Below are positions 1 to 9,826 of a DNA stretch of 64,000 nucleotides, piece after piece; the first letter of the stretch is position 1; every line of letters starts with the position of its first letter. Under the pieces are notes generated by a model. That model searched no databases, had not been told where the DNA came from, and saw nothing but the letters and a program-made list of their open reading frames with translations. The position numbers and the translations under genes were made by a program. Source of the stretch: Cyclobacteriaceae bacterium (GTDB lineage: Bacteria; Bacteroidota; Bacteroidia; Cytophagales; Cyclobacteriaceae). Location of the stretch: contig JAEUTZ010000006.1 of NCBI GenBank assembly GCA_016787725.1, positions 1 to 64,000 on the forward strand, read 5' to 3'.

Positions 1-325
1 TCATTAACGCAATTCGATGCAAACAAATCTATAGGATGTTCTCCGTGGTTAAGCGAGGTACACCATTCATTAAAACAGTTCAAGGGTGAACCTCAAAAAT
101 TTACGACTTTGGCGCTTGGATTCTTCTTAGAATTCCACGTGACCGAACGTTGTTTGAAAACTAAACTACAAATTTACACGTCACCCCGCAATGGCACATG
201 CATTTTGTTATGCACTGTGCCGCTGTCAACCGTCACTAAGCAGCACGGATGCCAAAGTTTTGGATGTGGGTTGAAGTCGCGCGGCTTTGGCATTGGTGCT
301 GCGATTCGAAGCCTGTGATTTCCGG
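1..325. other. Gene-poor left edge of the cassette array
   Basis: No gene can be supported here. The plus strand is open in one frame from base 1 to 318, but it has no start in the window, no recognisable domain and runs straight through repeat-like sequence, so it is probably chance. A short inverted repeat (240-257 with 285-302, two mismatches) lies just downstream of the minus-strand gene ending at 326 and could act as a transcription terminator. The segment 207-223 is the inverse core of an attC-like site, described separately; its other half is not resolved and may lie at or beyond base 1. Confidence 0.5.
207..223 (-). repeat. Inverse core of attC-like site at the end of cassette 1
   Basis: On the minus strand this segment reads GCGGCACAGTGCATAAC. 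It is the imperfect complement (15 of 17) of the cassette start at 1648-1632, GTTATGCACAATGCCGC. A second stem arm and the outer core could not be located confidently between bases 1 and 206, so the full attC is not delimited. Confidence 0.55.
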
Positions 326-760
326 TCAGATATACAGAATCTTACTATTCTTATCAGTTGTAGAATTTTCTTTTTTTTTCTCCACAACAAGAAATTGTCC
401 CATGTGGTCCTTGAGAAGAAATTTCAGATTATCGATATTTTTAAAACTGAGAAGAGGGTCTGATTCAAGAACTGAATTCATTTTTTGTACAAAGGAGTCC
501 GCCAGGTCTTTGTCACAATAGTCAACAACTCTCCATCCTTCTTCTATAACTGTCGTTTCGTTAGTCCTCAAGGAGTTCAAGTCATAGTGATACTCTAAAC
601 TTACTTTTGTCATAGCAGTTAAATTTGTCAAAGATACCAATTCTTTTACTAGGATTCTAAAAAGCCCATTTACTAAGGCGTGCCATGTAAACAAAACGGC
701 AACGATGGACAAAATAATTTCCGAAACATTTATTAATCTGTATTTGATTTCAAAATTCAT
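326..760 (-). CDS. Hypothetical protein with one N-terminal membrane segment
   Basis: 144 residues; no family recognised. A single hydrophobic segment (about residues 13-35) suggests an inner-membrane anchor, followed by a mostly charged soluble part with many Lys, Asp and Glu. It is the second gene of cassette 1, starting 4 bases after the stop of the lipoprotein gene upstream (765-1463), so the two are probably co-transcribed and may act together. The low GC and lack of relatives I can name are typical of integron cassette genes. The ATG is the only sensible start. Confidence 0.55.
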   Translation of the reverse strand: MNFEIKYRLINVSEIILSIVAVLFTWHALVNGLFRILVKELVSLTNLTAMTKVSLEYHYDLNSLRTNETTVIEEGWRVVDYCDKDLADSFVQKMNSVLESDPLLSFKNIDNLKFLLKDHMGQFLVVEKKKENSTTDKNSKILYI

Positions 761-764
761 TACT

Positions 765-1463
765 TCAGTTCTGCTCTATAAATTTTCTCACTAGGTAATC
801 ATTTCTCTCTTTACTATATTTTATTGTTTCAGAGTCTTTGTAATCTTTATAGTAGCAAAGCCAAACGAGTCGTTTATTAAGAAGAACTACGTTCATTATT
901 GTCACCTTAAATATTTCCTTGCCATTAATATTGACTCTTTGTAATGTCACCACAGTACTTACATTATCATTGATGAAATAGTCCTCAATCTCAATAAGTT
1001 TATCAAATCTTACATCTACACTCTTTATTTCATTTTCTAGGTTATTCTTAATTTTTTCCCATTGTTCTTTCGTTATTCTATTGGTATTAGTCCCAATCAA
1101 ATTTTTAATTTCAGAGTTGTTTGCATCGTGGTCAGCAAGTCTTTTGTTTCCGAATAGAATGTAATAGTCATCGAAGAAGGTCTCACTCGAATCATTAATT
1201 TGATTGTATACCTTATCAATTAAATATACGGCTAAAACGGTATTTCTGCCATTATATCCTACAGCTTCGTCAACTCTGTCTTTAATTCTTGAATCTAAGT
1301 AGCACTCAGTATAGTTATTCATTGTCGGCAAACAAATTTCTTTATCTCCGAAGAGTACTGTTTTCTCACATTTCTTGATAACCGGTTCATCTGATGCTTG
1401 CTTGTTGTTATTATTTGAGTTAGCACAAGATGTGATTATAACTAGAAAGATTAATTTTTTCAT
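765..1463 (-). CDS. Predicted lipoprotein of unknown function
   Basis: 232 residues. The N-terminus is a type II signal peptide: two lysines, a short hydrophobic stretch and the lipobox ITSC, with Cys13 as the lipidated residue, followed by an Asn-rich linker. The mature part is charged and has no domain I recognise. It is the first gene of cassette 1, about 185 bases from the cassette start at 1648, and lies directly upstream of the small membrane protein gene at 326-760. The cell-envelope location is inferred from the lipobox only. Confidence 0.6.
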   Translation of the reverse strand: MKKLIFLVIITSCANSNNNNKQASDEPVIKKCEKTVLFGDKEICLPTMNNYTECYLDSRIKDRVDEAVGYNGRNTVLAVYLIDKVYNQINDSSETFFDDYYILFGNKRLADHDANNSEIKNLIGTNTNRITKEQWEKIKNNLENEIKSVDVRFDKLIEIEDYFINDNVSTVVTLQRVNINGKEIFKVTIMNVVLLNKRLVWLCYYKDYKDSETIKYSKERNDYLVRKFIEQN

Positions 1464-1641
1464 TTAAATACTATTTTATTCATAATTCGAATTTATTTTA
1501 ATAGGTCATATTATTTTTAAAAATTATCAATTAAAAATCAGGACTCATTATGGCTCTTTTGCTTGCTTTGGTGTCGCGGGAGAAAGCGCGGCAAGCAAAA
1601 GTGCCAATGTTCGAAGCACCTAATCTGTCCCGCGGCATTGT

Positions 1642-1840
1642 GCATAACGAACAGGGCTTTGTGCAGGCAGGGCATTGTTGATTGTCCAGCCTGGAACTGA
1701 AGCCCAATAAAGAAATAGAAGTACAAGATAACAACTAAAAGCCCAACAGAATTCCGTCCAGCCCGAACCAAAGTACAGCGATGCAAACAGCCGAAGTTTG
1801 AACGTCAAGCCCTGCTTGCACAAAACCCCATGTTGTAGGC
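1642..1840 (-). repeat. attC-like recombination site between cassettes 2 and 1
   Basis: On the minus strand the site opens with GCCTACAAC (1840-1832) and closes with GTTATGC (1648-1642). Between them, arms 1809-1828 and 1654-1673 pair in 18 of 20 positions, leaving a long loop of about 135 bases. Apart from this site, the 406-base gap between the genes ending at 1870 and starting at 1463 holds nothing I can support. Confidence 0.7.
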
Positions 1841-1869
1841 AGTTTTATTGTGTCCACCGTTTGGGTTTG

Positions 1870-2424
1870 TCAAACTTTGAAAACAACATAAAACATACTT
1901 TCTTCTTCGTCAACAACTGTCCAACCGTCTCGGGTGTGAGCTTTAAACGCTCTTGGATTATCCTTTGCGATTGTCGCAAATAAATATTCGTATTTGCCTT
2001 TCATGTTTTCAACTAATGTATCAAGCATTAACGGTCTAATTCCTGAACCCATAAACTCTGTGTCCACAACTGCTTGTGCTCCTACACAAATATTTGATGA
2101 TTTAGATATTTTGTCTTTTTGTTTTAGCATTGTTACAAAGTCTTCGTGCTTTCCAATTATTCCATCTTTTGAAAAATTATTTAGGAGATAATAGCCGATA
2201 ACTTTATTGTCGAAGTCGGTAACTGTAATTTGCTTTCTATGTATTAATTCAGCAAAAGTTTCTTTTGAAAATGCTGCTCCCACAAATCCGTCTTTTATGT
2301 TTTCACCTAAAACTGATTTTTGCCATTTTTGATTTAGCAACATTAAACTTGGAATGTCATTTTGAGTGGCATTACGAATTGTAACATCAATCGTTGAATT
2401 GTCTTTTAAAGTTATTTTTGTCAT
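1870..2424 (-). CDS. GNAT-family N-acetyltransferase
   Basis: 184 residues from the ATG at 2424. A GTG six bases further upstream (2430), abutting the stop of the preceding gene, is possible. It shows the GNAT pattern: an N-terminal strand and helix with the usual 'R.A...D...L..L' spacing, a central strand pair, and a V-D-x-x-F-x-G-x-G-I region (about residues 130-140) resembling the acetyl-CoA pyrophosphate loop, here reduced compared with the classic RxxGxG/A. The acceptor substrate is unknown. It is the second gene of cassette 2 and sits immediately behind a PLP-dependent enzyme gene, so it may modify the same amino acid or amine. Confidence 0.75.
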   Translation of the reverse strand: MTKITLKDNSTIDVTIRNATQNDIPSLMLLNQKWQKSVLGENIKDGFVGAAFSKETFAELIHRKQITVTDFDNKVIGYYLLNNFSKDGIIGKHEDFVTMLKQKDKISKSSNICVGAQAVVDTEFMGSGIRPLMLDTLVENMKGKYEYLFATIAKDNPRAFKAHTRDGWTVVDEEESMFYVVFKV

Positions 2425-2430
2425 AAACAC

Positions 2431-3306
2431 CTATGATTGAATTAAAGAATTGAATTTTTCAGGTGAAATATTTTTTCCTGTAATCACTGCTATTTTCTTG
2501 GTTTCATCTTTTCTTGTTTTAAGTGCTGCTGCCAAAGATATTGCTCCACCAGGTTCTGTTATCAAATTGAATTGTTCATAAATCAATCTTGTTGCATTGG
2601 CAATTTCATTTTCCTCTAATGTTTCAATGGTGTTCGTAAATTTTAATAGTTCTAAGTTTGAATTTGGTATTCTATCAATTGAAAGACTGTCGGCAATACT
2701 TGTAGATGAACTATTATGTTCTTTAAGCCCGTTTAGCCTTTGATAAATTTGGGGTTCAACTCCAATTACCTTGTTATTTGAATTGAAAGACTTTACGAAC
2801 TTGGAATTGGCAAATAAAAGTGAACCGCTGCCGATCGGAAAATAGATTGTCAATACACCTTCAAAATCATCAATTATTTCTTTTGCTATTTCGCTGTAGC
2901 CTTCAAGTAAATATTCATTGTCAAACAATGGAACAAACGTAAAATCTTTTTCACTTGCAATCAACTTAGCATATTCAGTTGCTTGGTCTAAGTTGTAATT
3001 GTCAATTAGTAAAACTGTTGCTCCGTAACTTTCAATTAATGCTTTCTTGTAGTTGCTTAATTTGTGACTACTTATTATTATTGCCTGTATGCCCAATTCT
3101 TTTGCAATTGCTGCTACTGCAATTCCGTGATTACCTGTTGTAAAAGTTACAAGTCCATTTGTTTTGTCGGTATGTTGCAGGAAATTAATTACACCTCGTG
3201 CTTTAAAAGAATTGCCAAATTGATTACACTCCAACTTTATAAAAATGTCGGGTCTGTCTAAATTGTCAAAAGTTTTATATGGTGTCCTTTTTATTAGGTG
3301 GAACAT
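2431..3306 (-). CDS. PLP-dependent enzyme, threonine dehydratase/serine racemase-like (fold type II)
   Basis: 291 residues. It has the fold-type II features: a Schiff-base lysine in NSFKARG (about residue 34), an asparagine loop TTGNHG (about residues 56-61) and a glycine-rich phosphate-binding loop written PIGSGSL instead of the usual GGGGL. The C-terminal PLP-nitrogen contact is TGKN rather than SGGN. This suits an amino-acid ammonia-lyase, racemase or related beta-eliminating enzyme, but the altered loops make the substrate uncertain. It lacks the C-terminal regulatory ACT domain of biosynthetic IlvA. The start lies only about 25 bases inside the cassette boundary, so transcription probably comes from upstream. 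Confidence 0.8.
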   Translation of the reverse strand: MFHLIKRTPYKTFDNLDRPDIFIKLECNQFGNSFKARGVINFLQHTDKTNGLVTFTTGNHGIAVAAIAKELGIQAIIISSHKLSNYKKALIESYGATVLLIDNYNLDQATEYAKLIASEKDFTFVPLFDNEYLLEGYSEIAKEIIDDFEGVLTIYFPIGSGSLLFANSKFVKSFNSNNKVIGVEPQIYQRLNGLKEHNSSSTSIADSLSIDRIPNSNLELLKFTNTIETLEENEIANATRLIYEQFNLITEPGGAISLAAALKTRKDETKKIAVITGKNISPEKFNSLIQS

Positions 3307-3322
3307 GGTCTGTTGGAAAATT

Positions 3323-3458
3323 GCCTACAACGTTTGTGTTTCTGCAGTGGTGCCTTTCCGAAGCCGTATCCTGTCCCACGAAACGATAGCGTTGAACGAA
3401 GATAAAACTTAAAGCCAACTCGTCACGGCACCATTGCAGAAACATTTTGTTGGCGAGC
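3323..3458 (-). repeat. attC-like recombination site between cassettes 3 and 2
   Basis: On the minus strand it begins with GCTCGCCAAC (3458-3449) and ends with GTTGTAGGC (3331-3323). The stem arms 3427-3444 and 3337-3354 match in 17 of 18 positions, with a loop of about 72 bases. This is the clearest hairpin of the array. The R-box sequences deviate from the textbook GTTRRRY/RYYYAAC. Confidence 0.75.
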
Positions 3459-3465
3459 GTACATT

Positions 3466-4266
3466 TCACTCAATCTTAATTGCTTGTCTGACCACTTTGA
3501 ATGCAATTGGTGTCATGGCAATGGTAATAAGAAGTCCCTTTACAATCTCGCTGTTATAGTCTGGGGAGTCCGCTTTGAGCAACCAAATTTCATTTTTAAT
3601 TAAGTATGCCAAAATAAATCCAAGATTCATTATCGCTGTCACAAGTCCTGGATAAAATATGTTTTTAGTCTTCCAATAGATTTGGTTTAAGAATAGACTA
3701 AAGATTGTCCCGCCCAAAATGTCACCGAACCAAAAGCCATAAAACAATGAAGTTACTATGCTTGATTTCTTAAATCCTATTTGCTTTGTCAGTCCGTTTA
3801 AAATGAAACCCTGAAATATAAATGTCACAAGTATTGGGTACAAAACGTGGTTTATAACATTAACCCAATTTGATGCTGAGGATACGTAAAGGTTGTGGTC
3901 AATAAATGAACTTACTACAGTACTGTTAAAGAGTTTAGCCTTTAAGATGTTAATTAGTATAAATGTCCCAGTACTGAAAATAGAGAGTCCAAGTCCCAAT
4001 AAAATATTGCTCTTAAAATCGTCAAACTTATTTAAGTTGTCGGCCAATTCTTTTTGATTCTCTTCTTTGTTTACGACATAAAAAGTCACAGCTGTCCCCA
4101 TTAGTAGGGTTATGTATAAAATATACTTATGAGGTATTGCGTTCTCCCATATGTCCGGATTTGCATATGAGTAAAATAGTGAATAAGCTAAATACTCAGC
4201 TGTCAACAAAGAGGCGCCAATTAGAAGTCCTCTCTTTGAAAATGTCGATGAATACTCAATTGTCAT
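3466..4266 (-). CDS. CPBP-like multi-pass membrane protein with degenerate active site
   Basis: 266 residues from the ATG at 4266. A longer reading frame up to 4332 would run through the cassette boundary and is disfavoured. It has about seven to eight membrane segments. The segment layout ('FQGFILNGL', then 'YGFWFGD', then 'GLVTAIMNL') resembles the three motifs of CPBP/Abi proteins (EExxxR, FxxxH, HxxxN). The first Glu pair, the Arg and both His residues are missing; only the final Asn fits. If it belongs to the family it is probably not a protease. Such proteins are often bacteriocin-immunity or prenyl-CAAX-like. It is the only gene in cassette 3, starting 18 bases after the cassette core. 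Confidence 0.6.
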   Translation of the reverse strand: MTIEYSSTFSKRGLLIGASLLTAEYLAYSLFYSYANPDIWENAIPHKYILYITLLMGTAVTFYVVNKEENQKELADNLNKFDDFKSNILLGLGLSIFSTGTFILINILKAKLFNSTVVSSFIDHNLYVSSASNWVNVINHVLYPILVTFIFQGFILNGLTKQIGFKKSSIVTSLFYGFWFGDILGGTIFSLFLNQIYWKTKNIFYPGLVTAIMNLGFILAYLIKNEIWLLKADSPDYNSEIVKGLLITIAMTPIAFKVVRQAIKIE

Positions 4267-4289
4267 AAATGTATGCTCGCCAACTAGTG

Positions 4290-4310
4290 AATATAGGCAT
4301 TTCCTATATT
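4290..4310. repeat. Short palindrome beside the array's right boundary
   Basis: Arms AATATAGG (4290-4297) and CCTATATT (4303-4310) are perfectly complementary around a five-base loop. The palindrome sits 5 bases outside the first cassette core at 4284. It may belong to the array's attachment site or a regulator site; the function is unknown. Confidence 0.4.
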
Positions 4311-4400
4311 TCCTTATTCCATACTTAACCACTTTTCAACAATTCTCAGTTGCCTGGATCCGATTAACTGCTATCCTACCAAACCAAAAAACCGCATAAA

Positions 4401-4431
4401 AAAACCCCCGCAGTCTGACCGCAGGGGTTTT
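4401..4431. terminator. Rho-independent terminator hairpin
   Basis: A stem of CCCC(C)GC with GC(A)GGGG around TCTGAC is flanked by A and T runs, so it could work in both directions. It lies just downstream of the minus-strand gene ending at 4450 and isolates it from the cassette array. Confidence 0.75.
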
Positions 4432-4449
4432 AATCATGGGTGGTTCGCA

Positions 4450-5169
4450 TCACACTTCGGGTTTCGTGAAACGAATCTTCTGCATGAGCTGGTGTTCCTG
4501 GCTTTGAAACCCAAACACACTGCGCACGTAGGTCTTCACCGCAAGGGCCGTACTCACCAGGTTGTCCGGAGCCACGTAATAAACGTTATTGCGTTTACTG
4601 CGCGCTTCGTCCAGCCGGGTTTCGGCTTCCTGTACCGCCTTGTTGAGCGCAAACAACTCCAACAAGGTTGCGTGTAAACCGGGAAGCGAAAGGTGCGGCT
4701 CGTTCGGCTGGTACCGGCTCTCGGACGCGACTGTTTTTACCAGCCGGTCAAAGTACTCGGCCGTCACCGAATAAGCCCGGCTATACGAAGGTCGTTCGTC
4801 TTGCTTTTCAGCCTCCGGTGTGTCGGGAGTTTCCACCGGTGGTTTTGAAATGCGGGCGCCCCAAATTCTGCGCTTGCTGTTCAGCGCATCCTTGAGCAGT
4901 AACGGGTTGGCACCGCAGGCCTTGAGCAGGCCATACACGTTGCTGCTGAGTTTACGGATGTGCCGGAAGCCAAGCTCGCGGGCATTGGTAGCGTTGTCGT
5001 ACGCCTGTTGTGCCGCTTTCACTTCTTCCCAGATTTGTTGGGCGATGTTCAACTTGGCGGACATCGCATACACCTGGAGGTTTTGTTGTCCGGGGTTATA
5101 GGATCCTCCTAACCCGGTGCAGATCCGAATGACCTTGTCAAAGGACTGCAGGTTTTGCACGTGGCTCAT
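4450..5169 (-). CDS. Hypothetical protein, helical, possible cassette-flank gene
   Basis: 239 residues, not recognised. There is no signal peptide or membrane segment. The sequence is mostly predicted helical, with an Ala/Gln-rich N-terminal third, a Pro- and Glu-rich linker around residues 108-125 and a second helical part, which suggests a cytoplasmic scaffold or structural protein. Base composition is GC-rich like the chromosome and unlike the neighbouring cassettes, so it is probably not part of the array. It is followed by a good terminator at 4401-4431 and preceded by a long non-coding, repeat-bearing stretch. Confidence 0.6.
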   Translation of the reverse strand: MSHVQNLQSFDKVIRICTGLGGSYNPGQQNLQVYAMSAKLNIAQQIWEEVKAAQQAYDNATNARELGFRHIRKLSSNVYGLLKACGANPLLLKDALNSKRRIWGARISKPPVETPDTPEAEKQDERPSYSRAYSVTAEYFDRLVKTVASESRYQPNEPHLSLPGLHATLLELFALNKAVQEAETRLDEARSKRNNVYYVAPDNLVSTALAVKTYVRSVFGFQSQEHQLMQKIRFTKPEV

Positions 5170-5417
5170 AACATTTTTTTTGTTATGGTTATTGAACGCA
5201 ACACCCCGCGGACTTCGTTGTTGTTTTTTAATTTTTTTTTGAAACTATATAGTTGCGATTACACGCAACCCAAAAAGCATTGGCACGTTTGAGCGCTTTT
5301 TTTCATGAGAAAAGTTATTCGAACTGAAAATTTAATTCCGCTCTAATAAGTTGACACACGAGTTGTCCGTACAGAGAGAAGTACCGGTCAACTTCGCAAG
5401 GGTATCAGGCAGTTTGT
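5170..5417. other. Non-coding stretch upstream of the 4450-5169 gene
   Basis: AT-rich with several poly-T runs. It contains a small perfect hairpin, GTTGCG/CGCAAC (about 5252-5269), next to the palindrome CTATATAG, possibly in the promoter region of the minus-strand gene. No reading frame looks real. Confidence 0.45.
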
Positions 5418-5763
5418 AATCGTACCGGTGCCGGTACGTTCCCAACCGATGTGTTCCTGTAATCGTACCGGTGCAGGTATGTTCCCGACCGATGCGTCTC
5501 TGTAATGGTACCGGTGCAGTTTGTTCCCGACCGATGCGTTCGTGTAATGAACCGGTGCAGGTAAGCTCCCGTCCGATGCGCTCCTGTAATGGACCGGTGC
5601 AAGTATGTTCCCGACCGATGCGCTCGTGTAATGGTACCGGTGCAGTTAGTTCCCGTCCGATGCGCTCCTGTAACGGACCGGTGCATGTAAGTTCCCGTCC
5701 GATGCACTCCTGTAATGGTACCGGTCAACTTAGTTATGGTACCGGTGCATTATGTTCCCGACC
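5418..5763. repeat. Tandem array of about eight 42-43 bp units
   Basis: Each unit reads roughly GGTACCGGTGCAG, then a variable 3-5 bases, GTTCCCG(A/T)CCGATGCG and CTCCTGTAAT. Every unit starts with the self-complementary (GGT)ACCGGT. Because most units are 42 bases the array stays open in several frames, but the translations are pure repeats without initiation signals. There are no unique spacers, so it is not CRISPR. Confidence 0.85.
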
Positions 5764-6030
5764 AGGAGCTGGTTACTAGTTGCTGGTTGCTAGTTCCTGG
5801 TTTCTAGTTCCTGGTTGCCAGTAACCAGAGACCAGTAACCAGAGACCAGTAACCAGAGACCAGTAACCAGAGACCAGTAACCAGAGACCAGTAACCAGAG
5901 ACCAGTAACCAGTGACCAGTAACCAGCAGCCAGTGACCAGTAACCAGCAGCCAGTGACCAGCAGCCAGTGACCAGCAGCCAGTGACCAGCAGCCAGTGAC
6001 CAGCAGCCAGTGACCAGCAGCCAGTGACCA
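5764..6030. repeat. 14-bp minisatellite that reverses orientation
   Basis: From 5818 to 6030 about fifteen 14-base units follow one another, first CCAGTAACCAGAGA and then, gradually, CCAGCAGCCAGTGA. From about 5768 to 5815 the same 14-base period appears as the opposite strand (CTGGTTACTAGTTG and variants). The switch point is a near-palindrome, CTGGTTGCCAGTAACCAG (5811-5828), so the block could extrude as a hairpin. Confidence 0.85.
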
Positions 6031-6125
6031 AATCATAAATCGTAAATCCCAAATCCCAAATCCCAAATCCCCAATCACAAATCCCCACGTCTTATGTCTA
6101 GCGTCTTATGTCTTACGTCTAAAAA
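6031..6125. repeat. Short 7-10 bp direct repeats (AAATCCC and GTCTTATGTCT types)
   Basis: 6031-6082 consists of AAATCCCA-type repeats with drift at both ends. 6089-6120 has four copies of a 9-10 base motif, CGTCTTATGT/CTTACGTCT. Both directly follow the 14-bp array. The remaining bases up to 6185 form the likely promoter region of the peptidase gene. Confidence 0.7.
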
Positions 6126-6185
6126 TATCAGTTTGTTCCTTCCCTCACATTTAATACTTTACCACAATTTTCTAATCCTAACCCT

Positions 6186-8039
6186 ATGAATTTGCGGCTC
6201 GTTGCGTCCCTCCTGCTTCTTTCCACGTTTACCTACGGTCAGGACTACCGCTGGCAGCAGCGCGTGGAGTACACCATGAACATCCGCATGAATGTGCAAA
6301 CGCACCAATTCACCGGTGATCAAAAGCTGGTCTATTACAACAACTCGCCCGATACGCTCTCGAAAGTCTACTACCACCTCTTCTTCAACGCCTTTCAGCC
6401 CGGCAGCATGATGGACGTGCGCTCGCGCAGCATTGCCGACCCCGACCGCAGGGTGCTGGACCGCATCGCCAAACTGAAACCTGAAGAGATCGGCTACCAG
6501 CATGTGCAATCCTTAACGCAGGATGGCAAGGCCACCACCTACCGCGTGCTGGGCACCCTGTTGGAAGTAACGCTGGCCAAACCGATGTTGCCAAAAACCA
6601 AAACCACCTTCGACATGAAGTTCGAAGCGCAGGTGCCGGTGCAAATCCGCAGGTCGGGCCGCAACAACCGCGAAGGCATCGCCTACTCGATGACCCAGTG
6701 GTATCCCAAGCTGGCCGAGTACGATCACCAGGGCTGGCATGCCTACGAATATGTGGCGCGCGAGTTCCATGGCGTGTGGGGCGACTTCGATGTGAAGATC
6801 ACCATCGACCCAACGTTTGTGATTGGGGGTACGGGCAAATTGCAAAACCCGGAAAGCATTGGTCATGGGTATGAAAAGCCCGGCACCAACGTAAAACGTC
6901 CGGCCGGGGATCTTACCTGGCACTTTGTAGCGAAAGATGTAGTGGACTTTGCGTGGGCAGCTGATCCCGATTATACGCACGAGCGCCAGCAGGTACCCAA
7001 CGGGCCCGAGTTGCATTTCTTCTATCAGAAAAATGAAAAGACGGCCACCACCTGGAAGACCATGCAGCCGGTAGCGGTAAAGGTATTTCAACACCTGAAC
7101 ACCGTGTTTGGAAAGTATCCCTTCGACACCTACTCTATCATACAAGGGGGCGATGGCGGCATGGAGTACCCGATGTGTACGTTGATTTTAGGCGAAGGCA
7201 GTCAGGAAGGATTGAATGGCGTAATGGCCCACGAGGTTGCCCACAGCTGGTACCAGATGACGCTGGCCAGCAACGAAGCGTTGCATGCGTGGATGGATGA
7301 AGGCTATACCGACTTTGCCAGCGAAGAAGCGCTGAACACCATCTTTAACGAACCCATCACGCACGCTGGCAATTACAACAGCTACTTCAGTTTAGTGAAC
7401 AGCGGCCTGCAGGAGCCGGCCAGTCAGCATTCCGATCACTTCAGCACCAACCGCGCCTACAGTACTGCGGCTTACAGTTTGGGAGCCGTATTCCTGCACC
7501 AGCTGAAATACCTGATCGGCACGGAGAACTTTTACAAAGGCATGAAGCGCTACTACAACACGTGGAAGATGCGCCACCCGGAGCCCAATGATTTTCTAAG
7601 AGTGATGGAAAAGACTTCGGGCCTGCAACTGCATTGGTACCAGCGCTATTGGATCGGCACCACCAAACGCATCGACTACGGCATTCAGGCGGTGGTAGAC
7701 AATAACGGCAGCACGCTTATTCAACTGCAGCGCATTGGAGAATTTCCCATGCCCATCGATCTGGTGATTACATACAAAGATGGAAGCAAGGAGTTGCATT
7801 ATATCCCCATGAATGAATTGTTGGGTAGCAAGCCGGTGGAAGATAAATCCATGAAACGCGTGGAGGCCGAAACGTGGCCGTGGGTCAATCCTGCTTACAC
7901 GTTGGAAGTGAAGCGCAGCACGCGCGAGATTGAAAGTGTAGAAATTGATCCGAGCCTGCGCATGGCCGACATCAACCGCAAGAATAACAAAGTAGTGTTG
8001 GAAGCGCTGAAGCCGTACCAGAACCCGACCCAGGAATGA
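6186..8039 (+). CDS. M1-family zinc metallopeptidase, exported
   Basis: 617 residues, starting with a signal peptide (about 1-18). An N-terminal beta-sandwich precedes a gluzincin catalytic domain with HEVAH at 349-353 and the third zinc ligand Glu372 in WMDEGY, the HExxH-x18-E pattern of the M1 family. The aminopeptidase motif GxMEN appears as GGMEYP (about 324-329), as in many Bacteroidota exported M1 enzymes. It probably trims peptides in the periplasm or outside the cell. The gene ends 2 bases from the convergent gene at 8042. The start ATG follows a long repeat region and has no competitor. Confidence 0.9.
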   Translation: MNLRLVASLLLLSTFTYGQDYRWQQRVEYTMNIRMNVQTHQFTGDQKLVYYNNSPDTLSKVYYHLFFNAFQPGSMMDVRSRSIADPDRRVLDRIAKLKPEEIGYQHVQSLTQDGKATTYRVLGTLLEVTLAKPMLPKTKTTFDMKFEAQVPVQIRRSGRNNREGIAYSMTQWYPKLAEYDHQGWHAYEYVAREFHGVWGDFDVKITIDPTFVIGGTGKLQNPESIGHGYEKPGTNVKRPAGDLTWHFVAKDVVDFAWAADPDYTHERQQVPNGPELHFFYQKNEKTATTWKTMQPVAVKVFQHLNTVFGKYPFDTYSIIQGGDGGMEYPMCTLILGEGSQEGLNGVMAHEVAHSWYQMTLASNEALHAWMDEGYTDFASEEALNTIFNEPITHAGNYNSYFSLVNSGLQEPASQHSDHFSTNRAYSTAAYSLGAVFLHQLKYLIGTENFYKGMKRYYNTWKMRHPEPNDFLRVMEKTSGLQLHWYQRYWIGTTKRIDYGIQAVVDNNGSTLIQLQRIGEFPMPIDLVITYKDGSKELHYIPMNELLGSKPVEDKSMKRVEAETWPWVNPAYTLEVKRSTREIESVEIDPSLRMADINRKNNKVVLEALKPYQNPTQE

Positions 8040-8041
8040 GT

Positions 8042-9826
8042 TTACTGCAGGCGCTTTCCGTTTTGATCGATGGCAATCACCTTCACGTCTTCGCCACTGG
8101 CTGCTTTAAAGGTGAGCTCGCCTGTGATGGGTGAATATTTGAGTTCACTCGGCTTGGCTTCAAACTTATAGTTGTTGCTCCACACCAGGCCGCCCGCGCG
8201 GTTAATGCGTGCGATGGTAACGGGATAGCCGGATTCCAGTTTGCTCTCCAGATAAATCACCGCATAGTATACCTGGTTGGAGTCGTGCGTTAACAGCCCT
8301 TTGATCACCGGCAGGTTGCGCAATTTGAAATGCGCATTGTCCACCGGAAAGGTGACCGACATGTCGGGCTGGCGCGAAGGCAGAATGGAAAAGAAATAGC
8401 CGGTGGCCAGTGTATCGGCATACTTCAGACCCATGGTGAGCTGATCGTTGCCCAGGGCCAACGGCTTATACGGACTCGTGCTGTTCTCGTCCATAAACAA
8501 CGGGATGCTGTCATTTCCTGCAAATACCCATTTCAGCGATTGCACGATTTTCTCCCATTCCACTTCGCGCTGGGTTACTTCGCGCGTAGCAAATTCTTTA
8601 ACACCCTTCATCCAGCTTTTCAACACCGTAAGACTGCCGTATGAGTTATTAATGAAGTGATTATAATTTTGCGCATCGTCCTCCAGGTTGCGGCCCATCA
8701 TCAGGCCGGCCAGGCTGTCGAGCCGGATGGCTGCGGTGATGTCGGTGCGCAAGGCTTTCATCTTCAACGAGACATCAGAGGAGTCGCGCAGGGGTTTGTC
8801 GTCAATCTGTTTGGAGAGGTAGGCCAGCTCGGCCAGTTTCACACGGAAGATGGCGAGGGGCATGGGATCCGGATCGATGGCCGTCAGTTTCGGAAAGCTC
8901 ACGTGCCGGGCTAACTCCGGCAAGGCTTTGGCCACGGAAGAATCTTGCTTCACCTTTTCGAAATATTTGTTCACTTCAATATCGGCCTTGATCAGGCTTT
9001 CGCGCAGCGGTAGAATTTCCTTCTGCACCACATCGCGCGTGCGCGTGGCCCACTCGCCATAATTCCACAACTTCAGGTCGTTCTGATAAAAGTCGGCCTC
9101 GGTAAGCCCGTCTTTCTTAAAATCTTTGATGGGTTGATAGGTAGCCTCCTGGTTGTAGCTTGACTTCCCTCCGGCTTGCAGCAAGGTTTTATAACTGGCA
9201 AACGACAACTTGCTGGAGTCAAACACGAGTGCCAGGTTGTTGAGCTCCACCAGCAATTGATCGTTGGCACGCAGCAGCAACTCCTTTTCCGTTTCGAACT
9301 GCCCCTGAATGGTTTTGAAGAATTGTTGAGTGCGTTTGTATTGGGCCCCCGCCAGCACAAATGACTTCTTGCAGTTGAATACGTTGTCGCGTCTTTCTTT
9401 CAGGGCTTTGGTGCGGGTTTCAATTTGCAGTTGCACATCGGAGTGCTTCACCCCAAATTCCCCGGTGCGCACATCCCTGCGGTTGAAGATCTGGTAATTT
9501 TCACTGTTCTTCTTGATCTCCTTTTCGGTGATCATCGGGTGGGCGATGTTATAAAAGTAAACAGCCGAGTCAAGGTTCGATAAAAGTAGCTCCGTCTCTT
9601 TTAGAATATCGTTCTTGAGAGATTTCTCCTGGTAGGTGATGCCCATATACAGATAGGCGCTGGCATTGTCCTTTTCATCCTTCAGATACCGCTTCAGATG
9701 CGGCTCCGCCATTTCATATTGTTTGGCGTTCAGCAATTCTATTAAGTCCTTGTACTTCACCTTCTGGGCCCACACCAGGCCGGTGGTCATAAAAAAAGTG
9801 AGGAATAGCAGGACTTTCCGGTACAT
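8042..9826 (-). CDS. Exported protein with TPR-like N-terminus, unknown function
   Basis: 594 residues with a signal peptide (about 1-20, ending VWAQ). Residues 24-80 look like tetratricopeptide helices ('LLNAKQYEMAEPHLKRYL' and a following 'AYLYMGITYQEKSL'), consistent with protein-protein contacts. The middle is long and helical with many charged residues, and the last third has short beta-type segments. I do not recognise the family. It is convergent with the M1 peptidase gene and divergent from the thioredoxin gene at 9912. The envelope location is inferred from the signal peptide. Confidence 0.7.
   Translation of the reverse strand: MYRKVLLFLTFFMTTGLVWAQKVKYKDLIELLNAKQYEMAEPHLKRYLKDEKDNASAYLYMGITYQEKSLKNDILKETELLLSNLDSAVYFYNIAHPMITEKEIKKNSENYQIFNRRDVRTGEFGVKHSDVQLQIETRTKALKERRDNVFNCKKSFVLAGAQYKRTQQFFKTIQGQFETEKELLLRANDQLLVELNNLALVFDSSKLSFASYKTLLQAGGKSSYNQEATYQPIKDFKKDGLTEADFYQNDLKLWNYGEWATRTRDVVQKEILPLRESLIKADIEVNKYFEKVKQDSSVAKALPELARHVSFPKLTAIDPDPMPLAIFRVKLAELAYLSKQIDDKPLRDSSDVSLKMKALRTDITAAIRLDSLAGLMMGRNLEDDAQNYNHFINNSYGSLTVLKSWMKGVKEFATREVTQREVEWEKIVQSLKWVFAGNDSIPLFMDENSTSPYKPLALGNDQLTMGLKYADTLATGYFFSILPSRQPDMSVTFPVDNAHFKLRNLPVIKGLLTHDSNQVYYAVIYLESKLESGYPVTIARINRAGGLVWSNNYKFEAKPSELKYSPITGELTFKAASGEDVKVIAIDQNGKRLQ

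Follow-up and report, generated by a model that had tools for sequence, protein, structure and literature searches.

Units with self-matching ends at the start of the contig

The stretch analysed here, called the window, comprises positions 1-64000 of contig C22 (JAEUTZ010000006.1) of a Cyclobacteriaceae bacterium, whose genome counts 4.21 Mb in 27 contigs. It opens with three units read on the minus strand, from position 4284 down to position 1, each having at its start GTT and some 15 further bases complementary to the end of the same unit. An attI-like insertion site (4285..4330, minus strand), with the inverted repeat TATAGGAAATGCCTATA at 4292-4308, precedes the first unit. We compared this array with related arrays in other genomes and with the tyrosine recombinase that accompanies them. 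The window very probably holds an array that has no integrase of its own, consists of an attI-like site and three cassettes, and is part of an integron-like system of cassettes in Bacteroidia.

Unit 1 (3332..4284, minus strand), whose start at 4267-4284 pairs with its own end at 3449-3466 (94%), encodes a CPBP/Rce1-like membrane protein (3466-4266, minus strand; Pfam PF02517, 26.5 bits for a cut-off of 22.4). Unit 2 (1649..3331, minus strand) starts at 3317-3331, which pairs with its own end at 1832-1846, the match extending over a longer stretch (1817-1846 with 3317-3346) at 77%. It carries the gene of a PALP enzyme (2431-3306, minus strand; PF00291, E 7.6e-52) and a second gene (1870-2424, minus strand) for which the Pfam search found no family. 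The start of unit 3 (1..1648, minus strand), at 1632-1651, pairs with its own end at 204-223 (85%); the contig end may cut this unit, and its two genes (765-1463 and 326-760, minus strand) have no Pfam family.

A preliminary description, drawn from the letters of the window, had reported complementarity between the start and the own end of each unit, genes facing one way, two long hairpins between the units, and cores (GTTGGCG, GTTGTAG and GTTATGC) departing from the integron consensus GTTRRRY. All four observations held. Among 90 words ending in AAC on the minus strand of positions 1-4500, the own end was the top partner of every unit start, scoring 13, 10 and 12 of 13 positions, versus 8, 7 and 6 for the next best; the longest open reading frames of the units all lie on the minus strand, and none of the three cores fits GTTRRRY. 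The extent had been given as 207..4284; base 1 of the window is the start of the contig, and the array may therefore extend past it. As for the reported lack of an integrase, a tblastn search of positions 1-9000 with the integrase of this genome, described below, gave no match under E 1.

The attC-like sites were searched with two covariance models, R1, built from four sites of the window's own genome, and R2, built from 94 R1 hits in 28 fetched loci of the same genus. Site A (3317..3466, minus strand, 150 nt) folds with a z-score of -2.68, only 1 of 200 shuffles being as good, and is matched by R1 at 3319-3458 (E 1.1e-31), a model whose training set includes it. Its DNA relatives (74-95% identity) are found in many genomes of the genus, and similar DNA lies on the own contigs C5, C18, C3 and C27. 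Site B (1632..1846, minus strand, 215 nt, with a long loop) is weak by folding energy alone (z -1.32, 16 of 200 shuffles as good), yet R2 matches it at 1636-1841 with E 1e-7 although it lies outside the training set; DNA relatives of site B occur in genomes G028 and G594. Of site C the 5′ part is present (82..223, minus strand; R2 match 82-216, E 1.8e-10, in the R2 training set). From its beginning at 223 the site may extend past the contig end, and its 3′ (R′) end was not found. Run over the whole genome, as the preliminary description had proposed, R1 found 8 places at E ≤1, including sites A and C and not B, and R2 gave 8 matches at E ≤1e-4. At E ≤0.001, R1 had matches in 28 of the 39 genomes of the own genus and order, the own genome included, with up to 37 per genome.

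Self-matching ends in other cassettes

In 58 cassettes of the genus lying between two sites (92 of the 94 R1 hits were used, two cut by locus ends being omitted), the start agreed with the own end at a mean of 11.48 of the 17 positions beyond GTT, versus 5.80 with the ends of other cassettes, and none of 5000 permutations reached the observed mean. In 39 of these 58, no other end matched as well as the own. A second set, of 36 cassettes from other families, came from loci chosen by their integrase and not by their sites; 57 of 63 hits were used, the six others being truncated, very short or on the opposite strand. Their self score was 8.36 of 13 versus 4.12, with again 0 of 5000 permutations as high. 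At least five matches at positions 4-9 were counted in 53/58 genus cassettes and 30/36 cassettes of other families, and the longest open reading frame ran in the direction of the cassette in 50/54. End matches between non-self pairs, which the preliminary description had envisaged as an objection, were thus not as good as those within a cassette.

Signs of mobility

Conservation of gene order in relatives, the other objection envisaged, extends to the neighbouring gene and not to the array. The gene at 4450-5169 is conserved in four relatives, in all of which the main match stops at 4394-4398 and other genes lie beyond; R2 found no site over these four stretches (25.5 kb), and the window array is absent beside the conserved gene. 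The cassette genes of the window gave no match in the DNA of relatives at E 1e-8, while site A matched many. Two pairs of duplicated or shared cassettes were found among 61 cassettes: a cassette of 302 nt that lacks a long gene is present twice in one array of G023 (contig C19, locus L079) with 94% identity, and one cassette is common to two species, G009 and G007 (67% over 84%).

These results bear on the possibility of non-mobile intergenic repeats or terminators, whose end matches would have arisen by chance or duplication. The folding energy of site B, unexceptional in comparison with its shuffles, would suit this explanation. However, the permutation statistics in both cassette sets, the boundaries at GTT, the arrays of sites on one strand and the four relatives with no array beside the same neighbour gene all oppose it, and we consider it extremely improbable and already disfavoured.

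Architecture of the attC-like sites

In the consensus, the site consists of two symmetric arms around a short spacer, with equal numbers of positions on each side; position 11 of both arms is its only constant irregularity. Within the inner arm, positions 1-7, 10 and 12-18 are paired in at least 85 of 90-92 rows of the alignment, and positions 8 and 9 in 79/92 and 59/92, respectively. Position 11 is paired in 1/91 rows and is an A.C opposition in 86/94. The outer arm, derived from the own ends of 53 self-matching genus cassettes and hence counted independently of the covariance model, is paired at positions 1-9 in 50-53 cassettes, at position 10 in 29 and at positions 12-17 in 36-48. Its position 11 is never paired (0/53), with A.C in 46, and the other families agree (0/30 paired, A.C in 24). 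Two main lengths were observed, of about 136-142 nt and about 175-183 nt.

Sites within an array are composite, the end of one cassette being fused to the start of its successor, and their outer arm is poorly paired. Joining a cassette's own ends restores this arm: such circle junctions had a better predicted fold than array junctions in 49/56 comparisons (mean -35.7 versus -26.3 kcal/mol). The complementary strand folded better than the gene-sense strand in 46/56.

The attI-like site

The exact motif TATAGGAAATRCCTATA (R at one place) has three copies in the genome, on C4, on C3 and at 4292-4308 of the window, and a GTT start lies 7 bases after each of them. On C4 the motif and the 3′ end of the integrase gene overlap; TATAGGAAATACCTATA stands directly after this gene and is followed by the GTT start. 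On C3 and in the window, the GTT start after the motif is self-matched. A fourth match in the genome has two mismatches, and a reversed control pattern gave 2 matches at ≤2 mismatches. The position of the first start was also determined in the 12 genus loci that, out of 16 integrase loci, have a downstream site. In 11 of them the first start is self-matched and follows the integrase stop by 25-130 nt, the exception being L090, whose first start, 6 nt after the stop, has a weak score. Among 22 named loci, 13 have their first start within 178 nt of the integrase stop with a score of at least 8/11.

Association of the sites with a tyrosine recombinase

Homologues of the integrase were collected in 81 loci, 80 from GTDB genomes selected by the integrase alone and one plasmid locus from a protein search. 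R2 at E ≤0.1 detected 63 sites in these loci, 60 of them downstream on the integrase strand, 2 upstream and 1 on the opposite strand, the searched sequence being larger upstream (about 490 kb) than downstream (317 kb). Of the 81 homologues, 54 bear an additional N-terminal domain (one to three copies), and the sites follow it: where 1500 nt or more of downstream sequence was available, a site was found in 21/29 loci with the domain and in 0/21 without it.

A survey of 295 Bacteroidia genomes found sites in 177 and a recombinase with the N-terminal domain in 137. Sites were present in 119 of the 137 genomes with the domain versus 58 of the 158 without (p 1.8e-19), leaving 18 genomes with the domain only, 58 with sites only and 100 with neither. 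The 58 genomes with sites only may contain orphan arrays or integrases that were missed. Both the integrase and a site are present in a Chryseobacterium genome (L148), a genus which we take to be of the same family as Riemerella.

Another enzyme (Xer, a transposase of the IS200/IS605 type, or RecA-dependent exchange) could instead move or maintain the hairpins, the recombinase being no more than a frequent neighbour. The own genome does have five PF00589 loci, 58 genomes have sites with no integrase of this kind detected, and the end elements of unit 3, presented below, hold hairpins of another kind. Against this, position, strand and the attI-like site tie the sites to the Bacteroidia integrase, and homologues deprived of the N-terminal domain have sites in none of 21 loci; although no search was aimed at an IS200/IS605 transposase, the involvement of another enzyme is very unlikely.

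Features of the integrase

The preliminary description had proposed looking for an intI gene beyond base 1 or elsewhere. A related integrase, of 382 amino acids, is indeed encoded in one copy on another contig (C4), but it is not an IntI. Its best sequence match in the PDB is VchIntIA (2a3v, E 2.2e-35), of which residues 183-248 face just 23 residues of the Bacteroidia integrase, so that the IntI insertion (about 42 residues) is lacking. In the text available for PMC3053210, the VchIntIA residues contacting extrahelical bases include 209, 210, 219, 232, 240 and 241. The distance from the K-hairpin to the HxLRH motif was 100 in 10/10 IntI measured (of 13 candidates, 3 had no usable open reading frame) and 57-63 in the 49 domain-bearing homologues measured out of 54. 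Homologues without the N-terminal domain had a median distance of 59; one of them (L173) had 100 and groups with IntI. IntI formed one clade with a support of 100, excluding the Bacteroidia integrases, in a 104-row tree that is unrooted, was built with a quick method and contains one very long Xer branch.

AlphaFold predicted the N-terminal domain with high confidence (blocks 88-95). HARP (PF07443) matched 1 of 7 full proteins with 23.4 bits, below its cut-off of 25, and 3 of 20 domain members at E under 1, the best at 0.001, while DUF5710 matched one protein above its cut-off. The best PDB sequence match of the domain was a weak one, the SMARCAL1 chain 4o66 (E 0.15), presumably the HARP domain.

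For the recombinase part, the four proteins tested all had NF040815 (recomb_XerA_Arch) as their top NCBIfam match, and one of them (L113, from Winogradskyella, 243.2) exceeded its cut-off of 220 bits, the own integrase reaching 201.5. NCBI labels this family site-specific tyrosine recombinase/integron integrase; the model spans the recombinase part alone (263 positions), and the label names neither sites nor cassettes. With TIGR02249, many of the best partial matches in relatives adjoin arrays and point toward them. The nearest named integrase, from a Chryseolinea metagenome genome, is 54% identical. The system appears to rely on a kind of recombinase of its own, and the model commonly used for integron integrases does not recognise it.

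A window array without its own integrase, and with an anatomy resembling that of integron cassettes, might also be an ordinary CALIN, in which classical attC cassettes were inserted by a canonical IntI since lost or acting from elsewhere. Canonical IntI does exist in the phylum, above cut-off in 84/296 genomes, but nearly all of these lie outside Bacteroidia; of 85 phylum genomes with a strong IntI match, one (G075) belongs to the class of the window, and IntI was above cut-off in 0/39 genomes of the own genus and order, the own genome included. Given in addition that the sites follow the other integrase (60/63) and that cores and arms are unlike those of classical attC, we judge such an origin highly improbable.

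Relation to known systems

The preliminary description had called the units integron-type cassettes. This designation is well founded as regards the general self-matching of ends and the same-strand arrays with a recombinase and an attI-like site upstream of them, but not as regards the integrase. Like integrons, the system has cassettes with one folded attC-like site, complementary ends and composite sites within arrays; its attI adjoins the integrase, and its genes mostly run in one direction. Unlike integrons, its integrase lies outside the IntI clade, is devoid of the IntI-specific insertion and points toward the array. The core GTTRRRY / RYYYAAC is found in none of the three window cores, and other cassette starts of the genus resemble, by eye, GTTRNNRNC. 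Whereas classical attC sites have two extrahelical bases on one side, according to the available text of PMC3053210, the sites described here have two symmetric arms with position 11 unpaired (mostly A.C) and no one-sided extrahelical bases, and their outer arm reaches about 15-17 bp. Since the integrase is not an IntI, we do not count the system as a member of the integrons; the best reading is that it works like an integron yet falls outside the group that IntI defines.

A subgroup of integron-like tyrosine recombinases in which the insertion is not fully conserved has been reported (PMC8138268), and resembles the Bacteroidia integrases in this respect. The available part of that article presents the insertion as indispensable to the working of integrons and, unlike what is seen here, describes no cassettes or sites for members lacking it. 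For Bacteroidetes proper, the accessible text on IntegronFinder 2.0 names one complete integron, in Salinibacter, and mentions an earlier survey of Bacteroidetes with only integrases without cassettes (PMC9024848); other papers, in the portions available, count the phylum among those with integrons.

In Riemerella anatipestifer, a gene flanked by 27 bp before and 140 bp after was reported to enter the chromosome without flanking homology, the 140-bp flank folding like attC; the mechanism is given as unknown and no integrase is named in the available text (PMC13148043). This flank is comparable to the main site length of about 136-142 nt found here. The Bacteroidia system is a candidate explanation for this homology-free uptake, a link that we infer.

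Proposed mechanism and weight of the evidence

In the mechanism that we infer, including catalysis by the integrase, the circle, the crossover point, the strand used and the role of the N-terminal domain, a tyrosine recombinase with one to three small N-terminal domains would recognise attC-like hairpins folded from single-stranded DNA, formed of two symmetric arms with position 11 unpaired in each. A circular cassette would be joined to the attI-like site just downstream of the integrase gene, or to another attI copy as in the window, with a crossover next to GTT. Each site left by integration would be a hybrid of two cassettes in which the outer arm is weaker, and excision as a circle would reunite the cassette's own ends and restore this arm.

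Several observations weigh against an integron-like system of this kind. Neither recombination, nor a circle, nor an empty attI was seen, and within the 3.5 kb that follow the own integrase on C4 (L036, 6447-10001) no convincing attC was found, the best R2 match having E 0.42. Self-matching was lacking in 5/58 genus cassettes and 6/36 of other families, although some of these pairs may span a missed site, as does the window's own entry in the genus set. No site was detected in 8 of the 29 domain-bearing loci whose downstream sequence reached 1500 nt, and in 9/22 named loci the first start was far from the integrase or low-scoring. The 18 genomes with the domain only and the 58 with sites only imply that one of the models misses members or that some arrays are orphaned, and the whole-genome survey with R2, and with it the view of the model's specificity, is confined to Bacteroidia. 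The inner-arm counts depend on the model, because the alignment was fitted to a model derived from four seed sites that are all A.C. Finally, judging from sequence comparison, the N-terminal domain would resemble HARP only weakly.

If the integron-like reading is right, a cassette system with a dedicated enzyme and dedicated sites is common in a large bacterial class, where cassette-borne gene flow has been undercounted. The question of how a recombinase can act on folded attC-like DNA when it lacks the IntI insertion, which is regarded as essential, would then become testable as well. A broader proposal would make of it a second capture system of Bacteroidia, separate from IntI integrons, with tandem HARP-like domains and mismatch-marked two-arm hairpins, present in about half of the class, missed by standard integron models and accounting for the uptake in Riemerella; we regard this proposal as evenly balanced between right and wrong.

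Cassettes with similar end elements and other features near the arrays

Unit 3 is bordered by two elements that recur in other genomes of the genus. The START element (1551..1649, minus strand), which combines the cassette start and a hairpin, shows 80-94% identity over its length in these genomes, where it stands around different genes. The END element (180..312, minus strand), which combines a hairpin (240-302) and the start of site C, shows 73-95% identity. Nearly identical START and END elements flank different genes in a family of cassettes (the window; L074, L075, L085, L090, L221-L224, L230 and L233). Out of 11 members compared, 7 share no protein of at least 90 amino acids with another member at E 1e-4, and 4 have related long proteins, protease-like by eye. 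This family may bear on how new cassettes arise, a question that would become testable if the integron-like reading is right, since near-identical end elements surround unrelated genes.

Contigs C22 and C3 of the own genome (G000), like several contigs of relatives, have an array or an integrase at one of their ends, as would happen if the assembly were interrupted at similar sites. Near the array, tandem repeats of about 42 bp and about 14 bp occupy positions 5416-6069 of the window, and related repeats lie at 918-1344 of C3, close to the attI copy of that contig.

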